From Nocardioides scoriae (GTDB lineage Bacteria; Actinomycetota; Actinomycetes; Propionibacteriales; Nocardioidaceae): DNA of 64,000 bases. A program made the position numbers and the translations under genes. Below are positions 25,100 through 51,078 of the stretch, one piece after another; positions within the stretch are counted from its first letter, which is position 1, and the number at the start of each line of letters is the position of its first letter. The notes beneath the pieces are model-generated. The model saw only the letters and a program-made list of their open reading frames with translations, ran no database searches and was not told where the DNA came from. The stretch is from contig NZ_LT629757.1 of NCBI RefSeq assembly GCF_900104965.1, positions 372,001-436,000 on the forward strand. Direction: 5' to 3'.

Positions 25100-25174
<75 letters not shown>

Positions 25175-43350: not shown

Positions 43351-44163
43351 CTAGCGGGTGACGTCCTTGGTGGCGAAGTTGGCCCACGCGGCGCCGGCGA
43401 AGACGACCAGGTAGGCCAGCTGCGTCAGCACCCCGTCCACGACGTCGCCCCACCGGATCGGGTCTCGGAACAGGTCGACGAAGGCCAGCCAGTGGCGGGT
43501 CAGCAGGTAGGGCTTGATCGCGTCGGCGGCGTCGAGGCCCAGCAGCACCGTCGAGGCGACCAGCAGCCCGATCGTGCCGAGGGCGGCCCCGACGGCGGAG
43601 TCGGTGAGCGTGCTGAAGAACAGCGCGATCGCGGCCACGCCGAGCATCGCCAGCACGACGTACACGAACGCCAGCCCGGTGCGCTGGGTCATCTGGGCCT
43701 GGGTCAGCGTCGAGCCCGAGACGCTGACCACCCCGGTCGCCGGGGCGTCGCCCAGCAGCAGCTGGCCCTCGACGTAGGCCACCACCGCCACCACGAAGAC
43801 CGCCAGCACCACGAAGACCACGACGCTCACCAGCTTGGCGACCAGCAGCCGCAGCCGCGCGACGGGGCGCACCAGCAGGTAGCGCAGGGTGTCACTCTGC
43901 ACCTCGCCCGCGACGGCGTCGCCCCCGACCACCGCCACGGCGACCGGGAGGAAGAGCGGCAGCACGAGGCCGAGGGCGGCCAGGGGGAACAGCGTGCCGT
44001 CGGTCAGCACGGCCGAGAGGAAGGGCGGGCCGGTGCCCGGCCGCGGACCGAGGTCGGTGATCGCGAGCAGCACGGCCACCAGGGTGGGCAGCGCGTTCAG
44101 CGCCAGGATCGTCACCCAGGTGCGGGGTCGGGTCAGCAGCTTGACCAGCTCGACGCGGATCAC
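43351..44163 (-). CDS. ABC transporter permease
   Basis: A 270-residue ABC-2-type permease with six helices. The N-terminal VELVKLLTRPRTW precedes the first helix, and AGEVQSDTLRYLLVRPVARLRLLVAKL is the typical cytoplasmic coupling segment. The GTG start overlaps the ATPase stop (GTGA). It converges on the lipase with three bases between stops. With the neighbouring ATPase it forms an exporter of unknown substrate. Confidence 0.88.
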   Translation of the reverse strand: MIRVELVKLLTRPRTWVTILALNALPTLVAVLLAITDLGPRPGTGPPFLSAVLTDGTLFPLAALGLVLPLFLPVAVAVVGGDAVAGEVQSDTLRYLLVRPVARLRLLVAKLVSVVVFVVLAVFVVAVVAYVEGQLLLGDAPATGVVSVSGSTLTQAQMTQRTGLAFVYVVLAMLGVAAIALFFSTLTDSAVGAALGTIGLLVASTVLLGLDAADAIKPYLLTRHWLAFVDLFRDPIRWGDVVDGVLTQLAYLVVFAGAAWANFATKDVTR

Positions 44164-45077
44164 GGGGCCTCACTCGCGGCGAGCACGATCTCCTCCAGGG
44201 TGCGGCGCTCGGGACCGAGCTCGGTGACGCGCACGCCGCGCTCCACCAGGTGGGCGACCAGGCCGGCCGGGTCGGGGCTGCGCACGACCACGTGCCCGGG
44301 TCCGTGGTCGGCCACGTGGCCGTCGAGCGCCCGCAGCGCCGTGGCGACGTCGGGCGTGCGCACCCGCACCAGACCGGTGGGGGCCTGCAGCACGGACATG
44401 TCCTCCTGGAGCACCAGCCGGCCCCGGTCGAGCACGCCGACCCGGGTCGACATCTGCTCGATCTCGGCCAGCAGGTGGCTGGAGAGGAAGATCGTGGTGC
44501 CGCCGCGGTTGAGGGCCAGCAGCAGCTCGCGCATCTCGCGGATGCCCTGGGGGTCCAGGCCGTTGGTCGGCTCGTCGAGGACCAGCAGCGGGGGCCGGCG
44601 CAGTAGCGCCCCGGCGAGGCCGAGCCGCTGGCGCATGCCGAGGCTGTAGGTGCGGGCGGGGCGGCGGTCGTCGGGGTCGAGCCCGACCTGCTCGAGCACC
44701 GCGCCGATCCGGCCCGGGCGGTCGGCGCGCGGCGAGCCGTCGATGGCGTCGAGCAGGGCCAGGTTGCGGCGCCCCGACAGGTGGGGGTAGGCGCCCGGCC
44801 CCTCGACCAGCGCGCCGATCCGCGGCAGCACCGAGGCGCCGTTGCGCGGCATCGGCTCGCCGAACACCTCGACGTCGCCCTCGGAGGCCAGGACCAGGCC
44901 GAGCAGCATCCGCACGGTCGTGGTCTTCCCGGAGCCGTTGGCGCCCAGGAAGCCGTAGACGTCGCCCTCGCGGACCTCCAGGTCGACGCCGTCCACCGCG
45001 CGCACCCCGCCGCGGTAGACCTTGGTCAGGCCGCGGGTGCGGACCACCGGCGCGGTCGCCCCGCCCGTCGCGGTCAC
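44160..45077 (-). CDS. ABC transporter ATP-binding protein
   Basis: A 305-residue ATPase. Walker A is GANGSGKTT at about 47-55, signature YSLGMRQRLGLAGALL, Walker B LLVLDEPTNGLDP and switch SSHLL. The C-terminal 90 residues are the accessory domain common to drug, bacitracin and lantibiotic exporter ATPases. It overlaps the upstream RseB-like gene and the downstream permease by four bases each. Confidence 0.92.
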   Translation of the reverse strand: MTATGGATAPVVRTRGLTKVYRGGVRAVDGVDLEVREGDVYGFLGANGSGKTTTVRMLLGLVLASEGDVEVFGEPMPRNGASVLPRIGALVEGPGAYPHLSGRRNLALLDAIDGSPRADRPGRIGAVLEQVGLDPDDRRPARTYSLGMRQRLGLAGALLRRPPLLVLDEPTNGLDPQGIREMRELLLALNRGGTTIFLSSHLLAEIEQMSTRVGVLDRGRLVLQEDMSVLQAPTGLVRVRTPDVATALRALDGHVADHGPGHVVVRSPDPAGLVAHLVERGVRVTELGPERRTLEEIVLAASEAP

Positions 45078-46183
45078 CGGCCCACCGGGTCGACCAGGCG
45101 CACGCCGGCCGCGAGGTCGTCGGCGGCCAGCACGAGCGTCGCGGGCGTGACGGTGCCGAGGTAGACGTAGGTGGCGCGACCGGCCCCGTCGAGCAGGACC
45201 GAGAGCGGGCCGAACTCCAGGGCCTGACGCTCGCCGGTGTCGCGCACGTTGCCGGCCTTGCGCAGCTCCTCGCGCAGCCCGCGGGCCACGAAGTCGCGCA
45301 GCGGCACGGCCAGCACGGCGGTCGGCCCCCGGCCGTAGACCCCGACCGCGCCGAAGTCCGCCGGGTCGCCGCGGCGCGCCAGGCCGGCGACCTCGTCGGG
45401 CACCTGGAACGGGGCGTAGCGGTTGGCACCGGCCGCCTCGTCGAGCGTGCGGCCGCGGGCCACCTCCACCCCCGGGGCGATCTCGAGCCGGGTCTGCGCG
45501 GCCGGCGGTCGGCCGAGCGAGAGCGAGGTCACCTCGGTCGTGAGCACCGGGCGCTCGCCGGCCGGGCCGGCGTACACCTCGACGCGCAGGGGGAGCCCGG
45601 ACTCCTGGTCGGCCCACAGGTCGACGCGGGTGATGGTCGAGCGGTCGTCGTCGGGCACCAGCCGCAGCCCCGCGGCGGCCCGGCCGGCGACGCGCTCCGA
45701 CGGCAGCCGCGAGAGCTCGCCCGCCCGGGCCCCGGCGAGCAGCCGCTGCGCCAGCGCGACCGGCACCACGTCGTCGTCGTCGGGCAGCCGGATGGGGGAG
45801 TACGGCGTGACGCTGACCCGGTTGCCCTCGTAGCGCCACCGGACCAGCCGGTCGCCCTCGCGGGCCAGGTCGGTCTCGCCGCTCTCGCGGACCCGGTCGA
45901 CCCGGTAGTCCTCGGGGCCCTGCCACCACACGCGCAGCCGGCTCGACTCGCCGAGCAGCCGGACCACGCCGCCGAAGGTGTCGCCGGTCAGCGGCACCTC
46001 GAGCGAGCCCTGGGTGGCGACCTCACCGGACCAGCCGGTGCGGTCGGCCGCCTGCACCCGGTCGGCGAGGGCGCGCGCGCTCTCGCGCGTCTCCGCCACG
46101 GGCAGGGCGCGGACCGCGAGCGGGACGACGACCAGGGCCGCCGTGACGGCGAGCACGACCAGCCATCGCGCCGCAGGGACCAT
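45074..46183 (-). CDS. RseB/LolA-like membrane-anchored protein
   Basis: A 369-residue protein with an N-terminal signal anchor (residues 7-26, WLVVLAVTAALVVVPLAVRA) and a predicted extracytoplasmic beta-rich domain. Segments such as TFGGVVRLLGESSRLRVWWQGPEDYRVDRV and ITRVDLWADQESGLPLRVEVY resemble the MucB/RseB-LolA half-barrel fold that binds lipids or lipoproteins. It heads the exporter operon, so it may present a lipidic ligand to the ABC transporter. The ATG is seven bases from TACGGT (leaderless promoter), divergent from leuS. Confidence 0.65.
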   Translation of the reverse strand: MVPAARWLVVLAVTAALVVVPLAVRALPVAETRESARALADRVQAADRTGWSGEVATQGSLEVPLTGDTFGGVVRLLGESSRLRVWWQGPEDYRVDRVRESGETDLAREGDRLVRWRYEGNRVSVTPYSPIRLPDDDDVVPVALAQRLLAGARAGELSRLPSERVAGRAAAGLRLVPDDDRSTITRVDLWADQESGLPLRVEVYAGPAGERPVLTTEVTSLSLGRPPAAQTRLEIAPGVEVARGRTLDEAAGANRYAPFQVPDEVAGLARRGDPADFGAVGVYGRGPTAVLAVPLRDFVARGLREELRKAGNVRDTGERQALEFGPLSVLLDGAGRATYVYLGTVTPATLVLAADDLAAGVRLVDPVGR

Positions 46184-46190
46184 GCCCCTC

Positions 46191-46196
46191 ACCGTA
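46191..46196 (-). promoter_or_regulatory. Leaderless-type -10 (TACGGT)
   Basis: TACGGT on the minus strand, seven bases, then the ATG at 46183. Confidence 0.5.
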
Positions 46197-46233
46197 CGAC
46201 CCGTGCGAAGCGCGGGACCGGGCCGAGCAGCGC

Positions 46234-46239
46234 TAGGAT
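46234..46239 (+). promoter_or_regulatory. Leaderless-type -10 (TAGGAT) of the leuS leader
   Basis: TAGGAT, six bases, then the GTG of the leader peptide at 46246. Transcription would begin on the leader start codon. Confidence 0.6.
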
Positions 46240-46245
46240 GGCGGT

Positions 46246-46272
46246 GTGAACCGCGCCCTCCTGCTTTCCTAG
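46246..46272 (+). CDS. leuS leader peptide (Met-Asn-Arg-Ala-Leu-Leu-Leu-Ser)
   Basis: An eight-codon ORF, GTG AAC CGC GCC CTC CTG CTT TCC TAG, with three consecutive leucine codons at 46258-46266, immediately before the leucyl-tRNA synthetase gene. The stop codon runs directly into a 10-bp hairpin. CTT is rare in this genome, which would increase sensitivity to charged tRNA-Leu. It is too short to be found by ordinary gene callers. Confidence 0.75.
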   Translation: MNRALLLS

Positions 46273-46317
46273 CCGCGTCGAGAACGACGCGGCTGCCCCT
46301 CCCTGCGAGGGGCTTTT
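46271..46317 (+). terminator. leuS attenuator: pause hairpin and intrinsic terminator
   Basis: AGCCGCGTCG-AGAA-CGACGCGGCT (46271-46294) is a perfect 10-bp stem. It is followed with no gap by GCCCCTC-CCTGC-GAGGGGC (46295-46313, 7-bp) and TTTT. This is the layout of an amino-acid attenuator: ribosome stalling on the leucine codons would mask the first stem. An alternative pairing GCTGCCC (46292-46298) with GGGCAGC (46326-46332) could open the terminator stem. Confidence 0.75.
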
Positions 46318-46359
46318 GCATGTCCGGGCAGCACCACCGACGACCAGAAGGCACCCGCC

Positions 46360-48843
<2,484 letters not shown>

Positions 48844-48852
48844 CCGGGACGA

Positions 48853-48889
48853 GCCCGACCGAGGCGGGGCCCGGCCTCGCCGGTCGGGC
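48853..48889. terminator. Bidirectional hairpin between leuS and the convergent SDR-like gene
   Basis: GCCCGACCG pairs with CGGTCGGGC, with a further AGGC/GCCT pair inside, in the 57-bp space between convergent stops. Confidence 0.6.
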
Positions 48890-48900
48890 CCGCTGCGGGC

Positions 48901-49548
48901 TCAGAGCTTGCGGACGGCCTCGGCGACGGGGCGGTCGCCGGCGACGACGGCGAAGGTCTTGCCGATGGTGTTCTCGGTCTCGAGCACCTCGGCGAGCACG
49001 TGGGCGACGTCGCCGCGGGTGACCGAGCCGTAGTCCACGTCGCCGACCTGGACGGTGCCCGTGGGGACGTCGTCGGTCAGCTTGCCGGGCTGGACGATGG
49101 TCCAGTCGAGGGCCTCCTGGGCGCGGACGTGGTCGTCGGCGTCGCGCTTGGCGCGCAGGTAGACCTGGAAGACGTCGTCGGAGTCCTCCTCGATGCGGTC
49201 CTGGCCCATCGAGGAGATCATCACGTAGCGCCGCACGCCCGCGGCCACGGCCGCGTCGGCCAGCATGATCGCCGCGCCCTTGTCCACGGTCTCCTTGCGC
49301 CGGGCGTTGCCGTCGGCGCCCCCACCGGCGGCGAAGACCACGGCGTCGGCGCCGCGCACGATCTCGGTGACCCGCTCGACCGAGGTGTCCTCGAGGTCGA
49401 GCTGCTGCCAGCCGATGCCGTCGGCCTCCAGGTCCGGCACGTGCTCGGCGGAGCGGATCAGCCCCACCACGTCGTGCCCGTCCTGGCTGACGAGCCGGCC
49501 CAGCTGGCGGGCGATCTGTCCGTGTCCTCCGGCGATGACGATGCGCAT
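48901..49548 (-). CDS. NAD(P)-binding SDR-like protein (atypical, NmrA/YwnB type)
   Basis: A 215-residue atypical SDR: RIVIAGGHGQIARQLGRL (Rossmann loop GGHGQIA), LDLEDTSVERV, AVVFAAGGGADGNA, YVMISSMGQ and WTIVQPGKLTDD, as in NmrA/YwnB-like proteins that bind NAD(P)(H) as oxidoreductases or redox sensors. It lacks the YxxxK active site of classical SDRs. ATG at 49548 lies seven bases after TAGCGT. It is divergent from the DHA2 exporter. Confidence 0.87.
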   Translation of the reverse strand: MRIVIAGGHGQIARQLGRLVSQDGHDVVGLIRSAEHVPDLEADGIGWQQLDLEDTSVERVTEIVRGADAVVFAAGGGADGNARRKETVDKGAAIMLADAAVAAGVRRYVMISSMGQDRIEEDSDDVFQVYLRAKRDADDHVRAQEALDWTIVQPGKLTDDVPTGTVQVGDVDYGSVTRGDVAHVLAEVLETENTIGKTFAVVAGDRPVAEAVRKL

Positions 49549-49555
49549 GGGGCCG

Positions 49556-49605
49556 ACGCTAGCGCCCGGGCGGTCAGGTCGCCCGTGAGGCTGCCCGGCT
49601 AGCGT
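49556..49605. promoter_or_regulatory. Pair of divergent leaderless -10 hexamers
   Basis: TAGCGT on the minus strand (49556-49561, seven bases from the ATG at 49548) and TAGCGT on the plus strand (49600-49605, six bases from the GTG at 49612). With 63 bases between the two start codons, the -35 regions must overlap. Confidence 0.55.
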
Positions 49606-49611
49606 GGGGAG

Positions 49612-51078
49612 GTGACCGCCAGCGAGACGACGAGCCCGAGCACGGAGGGTCACGACGACCGCTGGAGGGCACTGGCGGTGTGCCTGGTCGCCGGCGGGAT
49701 GTGCCTGCTCGACGTCAGCATCGTCAACGTCGCGCTGCCCTCGATCCGCACCGGCCTCGACGCCGACGACAGCGACCTGCAGTGGGTGGTCGCGGGCTAC
49801 TCGCTGGCCTTCGGCATGGCGCTGGTGCCGGCCGGGCGGCTGGGGGACGCGCGCTCGCGCCGCACGGTGTTCATGTGGGGCGTCGCGCTGTTCACCCTGG
49901 CCAGCGCCGCCTGCGGGGCCGCACCCAGCGCGCTGCTGCTCTCGGTGGCGCGGGTGGTCCAGGGCGTCGGCGGCGGCCTCATCACGCCGCAGGTCTCGGG
50001 CTTCATCCAGAACCTCTTCAAGGGCCCCGAGCGGGGCCGCGCGTTCGGGCTGTTCGGCGCCAGCATCGGCGTCTCCACGGCGATCGGTCCGCTGCTCGGC
50101 GGGCTGCTGGTGCAGCTCGGCGGTCCCGAGATCGGCTGGCGCCTGGTCTTCTACGTCAACCTGCCGATCGGGCTGCTGCTGCTCGTGCTGGCCCGGGCCT
50201 GGCTGCCGGTCACCGAGCGCGGTCCGCGGCAGTCCCTGGACCCCGTGGGCGTGGTGCTGTTCGCGACCTCGATGCTGCTGGTGCTGCTGCCCGTCGTCGA
50301 GGGCGGCCAGGGGGCCCCGCTGTCGCAGCGGCCCTGGTGGTTGCTCGGGGTCGCGGCGCTGCTGCTGGTCGCGTTCGTGCTGTGGGAGCGTCGGTGGGCG
50401 GCCCGGGGCAACGAGACGCTCGTGGACCTGCGGCTGGCCCGGGTGCCGTCGTACGTCTTCGGGCTGGGGCTGGGCACCTGCTACTTCGCCGGGTTCACCG
50501 CGATCTTCATCGTGCTGACGCTCTACCTCCAGCAGGGGCTGGGCTACTCCGCCCTCGAGGCCGGGCTCAGCCAGCTGCCGTTCGCGGTCGGGTCGGCCGT
50601 GACGGCCTTCTACGGCGGTCGCATCGTGCAGCGCTACGGCCGCGTGCTCGTGCTCGTCGGCCTGCTCGCGGTGGTGGTCGGGCTGCTCGGCGTCGACCTG
50701 CTGGTGCCGCACCTCGACGGGCAGGTCGGCCTGCGGCTCGCCCCGCTGCTGCTGCTCGCCGGCGCCGGCGGCGGCCTCGTGATCGCGCCCAACATCACGC
50801 TCGCCCTCGACGAGGTCGAGCCCGCGCGTGCCGGCGCCGGGGGCGGGCTGCTGCAGACCGCGCAGCGCGTGGGCGGGGCCATCGGCGTCGCCGTCGTGCT
50901 GGCGCAGTTCTTCGCCGTGGTCGGCTCCGGCGGGGAGTACGCCGAGGCCGTGTCGGTCTCGCTGCGCACCACGGTCGGCCTCGTCGTGCTGGCCCTGCTG
51001 CTGGGCCTGGTCGACCTGGCCCGCCGGGTCCGCAGCGACGAGGTGGGCGTCGCACCCGGGGCGGGGGCCGGTCGCTAG
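49612..51078 (+). CDS. DHA2 family MFS exporter
   Basis: A 488-residue 14-helix drug:H+ antiporter. Seen: DVSIVNVALPSI at about 34-45, LQWVVAGYSLAFGMALVPAGRLGDARSRR (motif A), ARVVQGVGGGLITPQVSGFIQ (motif B) and GASIGVSTAIGPLLGGLLVQ (motif C, proton antiporter signature). It exports small lipophilic compounds, but the actual substrate is unknown. GTG start from a leaderless promoter. The stop codon TAG is part of the -10 of the next gene. Confidence 0.9.
   Translation: MTASETTSPSTEGHDDRWRALAVCLVAGGMCLLDVSIVNVALPSIRTGLDADDSDLQWVVAGYSLAFGMALVPAGRLGDARSRRTVFMWGVALFTLASAACGAAPSALLLSVARVVQGVGGGLITPQVSGFIQNLFKGPERGRAFGLFGASIGVSTAIGPLLGGLLVQLGGPEIGWRLVFYVNLPIGLLLLVLARAWLPVTERGPRQSLDPVGVVLFATSMLLVLLPVVEGGQGAPLSQRPWWLLGVAALLLVAFVLWERRWAARGNETLVDLRLARVPSYVFGLGLGTCYFAGFTAIFIVLTLYLQQGLGYSALEAGLSQLPFAVGSAVTAFYGGRIVQRYGRVLVLVGLLAVVVGLLGVDLLVPHLDGQVGLRLAPLLLLAGAGGGLVIAPNITLALDEVEPARAGAGGGLLQTAQRVGGAIGVAVVLAQFFAVVGSGGEYAEAVSVSLRTTVGLVVLALLLGLVDLARRVRSDEVGVAPGAGAGR

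Follow-up and report, generated by a model that had tools for sequence, protein, structure and literature searches.

A study of 2005 predicted attenuators ahead of leuS in Streptomyces avermitilis and S. coelicolor, and its accessible portion names an antiterminator and a terminator hairpin (PMC1262725). In 2021 a leaderless peptide, LeuL2 (MRAVRLLLSEPR), was placed upstream of leuS in S. lividans TK24, according to the excerpt available (PMC8079986). The leuS leader of Nocardioides scoriae analysed here resembles these Streptomyces elements, as far as the excerpts describe them, in its gene, in a leader peptide with leucine codons (leaderless in S. lividans), in a hairpin and in a terminator. 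It differs from LeuL2, as excerpted, in belonging to another taxonomic family and in its shorter peptide, MNRALLLS, which ends at the hairpin; moreover, the upstream hairpin of the present sequences does not exclude the terminator, whereas the available part of the 2005 prediction includes an antiterminator hairpin (PMC1262725). The covariance model built from leaders of the present family matched two loci (L129, 1.6e-15; L130, 8.8e-17) which both encode the peptide MRAVRLLLSEPR of LeuL2. Judged by sequence likeness, the element studied here is homologous to the Streptomyces leuS attenuator and LeuL2, and represents the same kind of element in another lineage.

More distant relatives control other genes. 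In Mycobacterium tuberculosis, mutation of the LVVI codons in the ilvB1 leader abolishes induction, according to the partial text (PMC13236596). Both leaders place branched-chain codons in a short ORF that precedes a terminator; the ilvB1 uORF, as described in that part of the paper, differs in its gene, in its mixed LVVI codons and in the mutually exclusive structures proposed for it, which were not found in the present leaders (PMC13236596). For the S. coelicolor ilvB leader, codon changes reportedly had no effect on regulation in the excerpted account (PMC1262725). The mycobacterial polycysteine leaderless sORF attenuators, judging by the title of the report, are likewise leaderless and carry codons of the regulated amino acid, but they serve cysteine operons, and the excerpt at hand states that no conserved terminator hairpin was found in mycobacterial cys operons (PMC1262725). 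The LEU element of actinobacterial leuA shares a leucine-rich leader before a leucine gene; according to the same excerpt it differs in forming a pseudoknot, in the base stem of which the leucine codons pair with the leuA Shine-Dalgarno box (PMC1262725). A leuS attenuator is already known as a kind. The codon bias, the spread and the abutting stems reported below were not found in the portions of the literature available, and what goes beyond that literature is the CTT bias, the failure to find an antiterminator and an isoleucine-coding scaffold before citramalate synthase.

Leader and terminator upstream of leuS

The window is the whole 64,000-nt stretch of DNA that was analysed, part of a genome of 4.06 Mb on a single contig; leuS and the parts of its leader lie on the plus strand. 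The gene leuS occupies 46360..48843 with an ATG at 46360, and its protein matched TIGR00396 (leuS_bact) with 927.6 bits against a cut-off of 548.4, which upholds the earlier naming of the gene. A -10 element, TAGGAT (46234..46239), is separated by a spacer of six bases (46240-46245) from the GTG start of an apparently leaderless leader ORF at 46246..46272, which encodes MNRALLLS and a stop and is kept in the family. Its letters are GTG AAC CGC GCC CTC CTG CTT TCC TAG, with the GTG at 46246 and the TAG at 46270-46272. The putative control codons CTC CTG CTT cover 46258..46266, the CTT (46264-46266) being the conserved position -2. The final two bases of the TAG lie inside the 5' arm of hairpin 1 (46271..46294), a stem of 10 bp made of AGCCGCGTCG (46271-46280), an AGAA loop and CGACGCGGCT (46285-46294), which the covariation reported below supports. 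The intrinsic terminator (46295..46317) begins at the base right after hairpin 1, without a linker; it consists of a 7-bp stem, GCCCCTC (46295-46301) and GAGGGGC (46307-46313), a loop of five bases (46302-46306) and TTTT (46314-46317), and is indicated by a terminator scan, by covariation and by linker lengths. The -10 element, the six-base gap, the leucine ORF, the 10-bp hairpin and the 7-bp terminator with its TTTT had all been listed by the first-pass annotation, and direct reading found every one of them in place.

The terminator scan of 44000-50000 returned this site as two overlapping hits, with 0.4 expected from shuffles, and folding of the 114-nt leader gave z = -2.78. A promoter scan that also needs a -35 found nothing at the leuS leader, and no -35 match was seen ahead of TAGGAT. 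The earlier preference for an attenuator over a T-box at leuS held: the T-box model (RF00230) had no match up to E = 5 in 46150-46420 and, at E 0.001, none anywhere in the genome to which the window belongs. Applied to 20 relatives, the same model produced matches below threshold in 16 genomes, at one or two per genome; the window genome had none. Sub-threshold Rfam matches to Hrs1 (on the opposite strand), mir-1976 and asd were dismissed, all being far below their gathering scores. Across the window, only a tRNA-Ala(GGC) at 25100-25172 reached the gathering score of an Rfam model.

Conservation in the family and across the class

Relatives were sought with the N-terminal part of the window LeuS at E up to 1e-30, which matched 139 of 197 family genomes. 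The upstream regions of 90 of these were read, namely the 30 best matches and 60 hand-picked for spread, the other 49 not being included. A leader was called when a TANNNT lay 5-8 nt before a start codon, followed by 5-16 codons, at least two of them for Leu (or HL), and by a stem resembling a terminator. Aligning relatives had been suggested as the check on the element, and it bears the element out: leader, hairpin region and terminator occur in the same order in 79 of the 90 regions, and both stems covary. A leucine codon stands at position -2 in 78 of the 79 family leaders, as expected of the leucine-codon leader peptide first proposed; codon choice, Leu position and hairpin 1 are independent of the scan conditions, unlike the -10 element and the Leu content. 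With that restriction on the -10, the leaders start 6 nt (57) or 7 nt (22) after it, and the -10 recurs in 51 of the 52 class-set sequences described below, where it was not a match condition; this supports the leaderless promoter spacing originally noticed. The start codon is ATG in 58 leaders and GTG in 21.

The position of the stop is more variable than the structure. In 35 of the 79 leaders, as in the window, the frame ends in a TAG at the base of hairpin 1, and in the other 44 the frame continues through the 5' arm of hairpin 1, typically as ...QPR, to a stop further in. Codon 0 is TAG in the former and CAG in 23 of the latter: TAG stands in for this codon, and the stop moves without a change in the nucleotide structure. 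In a MAFFT alignment of the family, which was not fitted to structure, compensatory changes were present in 8 of 15 pairs.

Under the scan conditions no such leader was found in 11 of the 90 family leuS regions. In at least six of these (L027, L054, L059, L079, L086 and L087) leuS itself, by eye, starts 6-7 nt after a -10. In L034, also by eye, leader codons (MRQVLLT...) are in frame with LeuS, and hairpin and terminator are gone; we read this locus as a decayed or fused leader. For the other form of LeuS, 23 genomes were tried and gave 16 loci, of which 14 were read, L202 and L210 being excluded as too short; a match in G129 stays outside these counts because it is the same gene as L059. Two of the 14 genomes, both of genus g8, carry the element, and no leader was found in the other 12, all of genus g19. 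In at least six of the g19 loci (L195-L199, L203) a -10 sits, by eye, 6-7 nt before the GTG of LeuS. In both groups of loci it is as if leuS had moved into the place of a lost leader.

A covariance model built from 56 leaders of the window's family gave matches, at E up to 0.01, in 225 of 394 class genomes and 96 of 137 genera, figures which are counts of model matches and include some cross-hits to isoleucine elements. Closer reading was given to a class set of 52 sources hand-picked for spread, comprising the window and 51 loci, 50 of them from outside the family; the closely read loci span 23 families other than the window's. A LeuS motif follows downstream in 50 of the 51 non-window loci, the exception (L118) ending after 36 nt. 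In an alignment of the class set made by fitting to the model, a procedure that is biased toward the structure, 99.0% of cells pair and both sides have changed in 9 of 15 pairs; none of 500 shuffles scored as high, and slid structures were only 39-53% paired. One genome holds two forms of LeuS, each with its own Leu leader (L127 and L128).

These data bear on whether the stems might be chance hairpins in GC-rich DNA, which folds readily, or the end of a different transcription unit. Both readings are extremely improbable: the loci fetched show the element in 23 families besides that of the window, and the upstream neighbour is antisense and reads away from a start at about 46183 (chosen by eye). 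Because that gene lies on the minus strand, a plus-strand terminator cannot end its transcript. On the strength of its conservation, the leuS element is real and more than chance.

Two further conserved features concern the terminator region. In the aligned relatives, a stretch 3' of the T-run (46318..46327 in the window) has the consensus YRTGYCCGG, with its best two columns at 98% T and 91% G, and lies past the point where transcription should end; several leaders of citramalate synthase have similar letters after their T-run. YRTG fits a polymerase pause consensus, and the stretch may mark a polymerase pause at the release site. About 10-11 nt after hairpin 1, T or C followed by G was found in 92% and 83% of sequences, respectively. 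As a lead only, hairpin 1 might be a polymerase pause hairpin; a constraint on the terminator loop would be an alternative source of these two columns.

The putative sensing codon and an isoleucine twin

At position -2, counted back from codon 0, the 79 family leaders carry CTT in 71 cases, CTC in seven and CCC in one. The class set (n = 52) has 47 CTT, four CTC and one CTG, a count to be read with the preference of the model that found it, which itself favours CTGCTCCTT and with it the CTT codon. In the leuS bodies of 30 loci, CTT makes up 10 of 1682 Leu codons (0.6%), against 13.3% for CTC and 83.7% for CTG. Conservation of leucine rises toward the hairpin, from 66 of 79 leaders at position -4, where CTG is found in 47, to 73 at -3 and 78 at -2.

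The scaffold recurs with another amino acid. Five second hits of the leuS model that were fetched precede citramalate synthase, and their leaders end in ATC GTC ATT, ATC ATC ATT or CTC ATC ATT. A second covariance model, built from these five leaders (L122-L126), matched 122 of 149 family genomes, leuS cross-hits included. The isoleucine element of the window genome lies at C1:3966467-3966548 (L155), just upstream of a citramalate synthase match in which a part of 219 residues scored 275 bits against TIGR00977, whose cut-off of 450 applies to the whole protein. Among 20 further family loci, L170 was a leuS cross-hit and the other 19 all hold a YDTT(L/M)RDGAQ-type motif, which we take to mark the citramalate synthase enzyme family; outside the family the motif was present in 10 of the 11 loci read. 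Elements upstream of citramalate synthase were thus recorded at L155, L122-L126, L156-L169, L171-L174, L260 and L262-L270, the leader of L267 not being displayed. The remaining locus, L261, bears Leu-Val-Ile codons (...DLVIP) on the same scaffold before an acetolactate synthase-like gene. No report of a leader before citramalate synthase was found among open-licence PubMed Central papers.

Position -2 of the 24 isoleucine leaders read holds ATT in 15 cases and ATC in nine, whereas in five citramalate synthase genes ATC occurs 83 times and ATT never. Two simple reasons for CTT can be weighed against these counts. The window genome, with 45 tRNA hits, has a single tRNA-Leu(GAG) and no AAG. tRNA-Leu(GAG) should decode CTT by wobble as well as CTC, and tRNA-Ile(GAT) would be shared by ATC and ATT. 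The choice of isoacceptor as the only cause of CTT is weakened by this sharing, since the codon ending in U is preferred all the same. Pairing of the Leu codons (CUCCUU) with GAGGGG in the 3' arm of the terminator, considered by eye, is insufficient as the reason, because the Ile leaders also favour ATT although AUCAUU cannot pair in this way.

Search for an antiterminator and proposed mechanism

Ribosome positions were modelled by masked folding of the 79 family transcripts up to the T-run, with nested equilibrium structures and an assumed footprint reaching from 17 nt before the first base of the A site to 11 nt beyond it. In each of six ribosome states the terminator kept a mean predicted probability of 0.95-0.98. 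L032 alone fell below 0.5 throughout, and there the automatic terminator call was wrong, another 5-bp stem having been picked; with the A site at -1 four of the 79 leaders were below 0.5, namely L032 together with L015, L045 and L056, the last three in that state only. The base of the 5' arm of hairpin 1 did respond to the ribosome: its pairing with any partner was 0.99 in the free transcript and with the A site at -4, 0.79 at -3, 0.17 at -2 and 0.00 at -1 or at the stop.

Covariation was examined in 100 sequences by corrected mutual information, with no significance test. The strongest covarying columns were those of hairpin 1 and the terminator; columns close to each other in the leader start ranked lower, and the covarying complementary columns gave no sign of a third helix. 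The linker between hairpin 1 and the terminator measures 0-2 nt in all 100 sequences, and in 27 a linker base can pair and make the stems flush. In five of the 79 leaders (L070, L074-L077) the final base of hairpin 1 can pair as part of the terminator stem instead, and in L077 opening of the hairpin base lengthens the predicted terminator. The first-pass annotation had proposed that GCTGCCC (46292-46298) pairs as an antiterminator with GGGCAGC, which lies at 46326-46332 in the window genome. As a conserved antiterminator this pairing was rejected: when the first 45 nt 3' of the T-run were compared with this arm in 99 sequences, the longest complementary stretch had a mean of 4.14 nt, below the 4.58 nt of shuffles, and 7 nt is reached in only two, the window genome and L131.

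Thus neither nested equilibrium folding nor covariation nor linker lengths revealed an antiterminator that excludes the terminator and is set by ribosome position. Within these models, the lack of a classical antiterminator among nested structures would speak against the word classical and not against control by the ribosome, which is kept in view because the codon data ask for decoding. It is unlikely that attenuation is classical after all, by way of a hidden antiterminator, perhaps a pseudoknot or a helix using sequence after the T-run, that forms on a stall. The remaining parts of the classical plan are all there, an antiterminator is named in the excerpted Streptomyces prediction of 2005 (PMC1262725), the window genome does hold the GGGCAGC complement, and the five leaders just mentioned let the terminator take up the last base of hairpin 1. 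Yet masking removes the terminator in few leaders (one of 79 in five states, four of 79 at -1), the 100 sequences yield the two known stems and no third, and the complement is both unconserved and transcribed only once the polymerase is past the T-run.

The predicted stability of the terminator in every ribosome state could also mean that it is a constitutive upstream terminator or a transcript-stability hairpin, and that the leader is translated without being regulatory; the reported indifference of the S. coelicolor ilvB leader to codon changes, in the part of the study available, would agree with this (PMC1262725). Such a reading is very unlikely: in two families of elements the amino acid fits the function of the gene, and codon choice at a single fixed position is extremely biased. 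A simple terminator has no need of matched codons, and is disfavoured for that reason.

The leuS leader is most probably a transcription attenuator worked by the ribosome, which increases leuS expression under a shortage of charged tRNA-Leu. Its ordered parts in 79 of 90 regions, the CTT bias at -2, the covariation of both stems, the response of hairpin 1 to masking, the short linker, and the fit of amino acid to gene in leuS and in the sister isoleucine element all argue for this, with published support from the M. tuberculosis ilvB1 leader (PMC13236596) and from LeuL2 (PMC8079986). Against it stand the modelled formation of the terminator in every ribosome state, which leaves the switch itself a prediction, the 11 of 90 family regions and 12 of 14 genomes with the other LeuS form that have no such leader, and the reported indifference of the S. 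coelicolor ilvB leader to codon changes (PMC1262725). Transcription would start at or beside the GTG, as the -10 spacing suggests, and a ribosome loading on the leaderless mRNA would translate MNRALLLS. When leucine is plentiful the leader would be completed and most transcripts would stop at 46295-46317. When leucine is short the ribosome would stall on the last Leu codons, chiefly CTT, where according to the masked folding it would cover the base of hairpin 1, and more polymerases would then pass into leuS.

How the covered hairpin might act can be pictured in two ways. Our preferred guess, held tentatively, is that hairpin 1 stacks on the terminator and strengthens termination, and that the stalled ribosome removes this support. 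A difficulty is that a ribosome parked at the stop would open hairpin 1 too, so that release would have to be fast. The textbook order, in which hairpin 1 would itself be the antiterminator by abutment, is possible and rather doubtful. That order, proposed for M. tuberculosis ilvB1 (PMC13236596), would place the control codons where a stall leaves hairpin 1 intact, here at -4; under it, ribosomes stalled at -2 and ribosomes at the stop would block hairpin 1 to much the same extent. The order of leucine conservation, lower at -4 than at -2, matches the order in which masking opens the hairpin, and this favours a stalled ribosome that has to open hairpin 1.

Somewhat speculatively, and with less than even confidence, the stacked arrangement may be seen as a modular attenuator without an antiterminator, carried by Actinobacteria, in which a leaderless peptide finishes with a codon ending in U for the sensed amino acid, at a fixed distance from the stacked hairpin; a stall there would open the hairpin base and so unlock termination, and a codon swap would change the input. 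The inputs would then be Leu for leuS, Ile for citramalate synthase and, in one case (L261), mixed branched-chain codons for the acetolactate synthase-like gene.

With these data, a prediction from two species of Streptomyces becomes an element that recurs in much of the class, can be searched for with a covariance model and has a specific proposed sensing codon. They also point to a gap in the accepted mechanism, as no antiterminator was found. If it is true that the abutting hairpin is the switch, this would be a different way for the ribosome to control termination. The isoleucine twin marks a further step, in isoleucine synthesis, as likely to be regulated.
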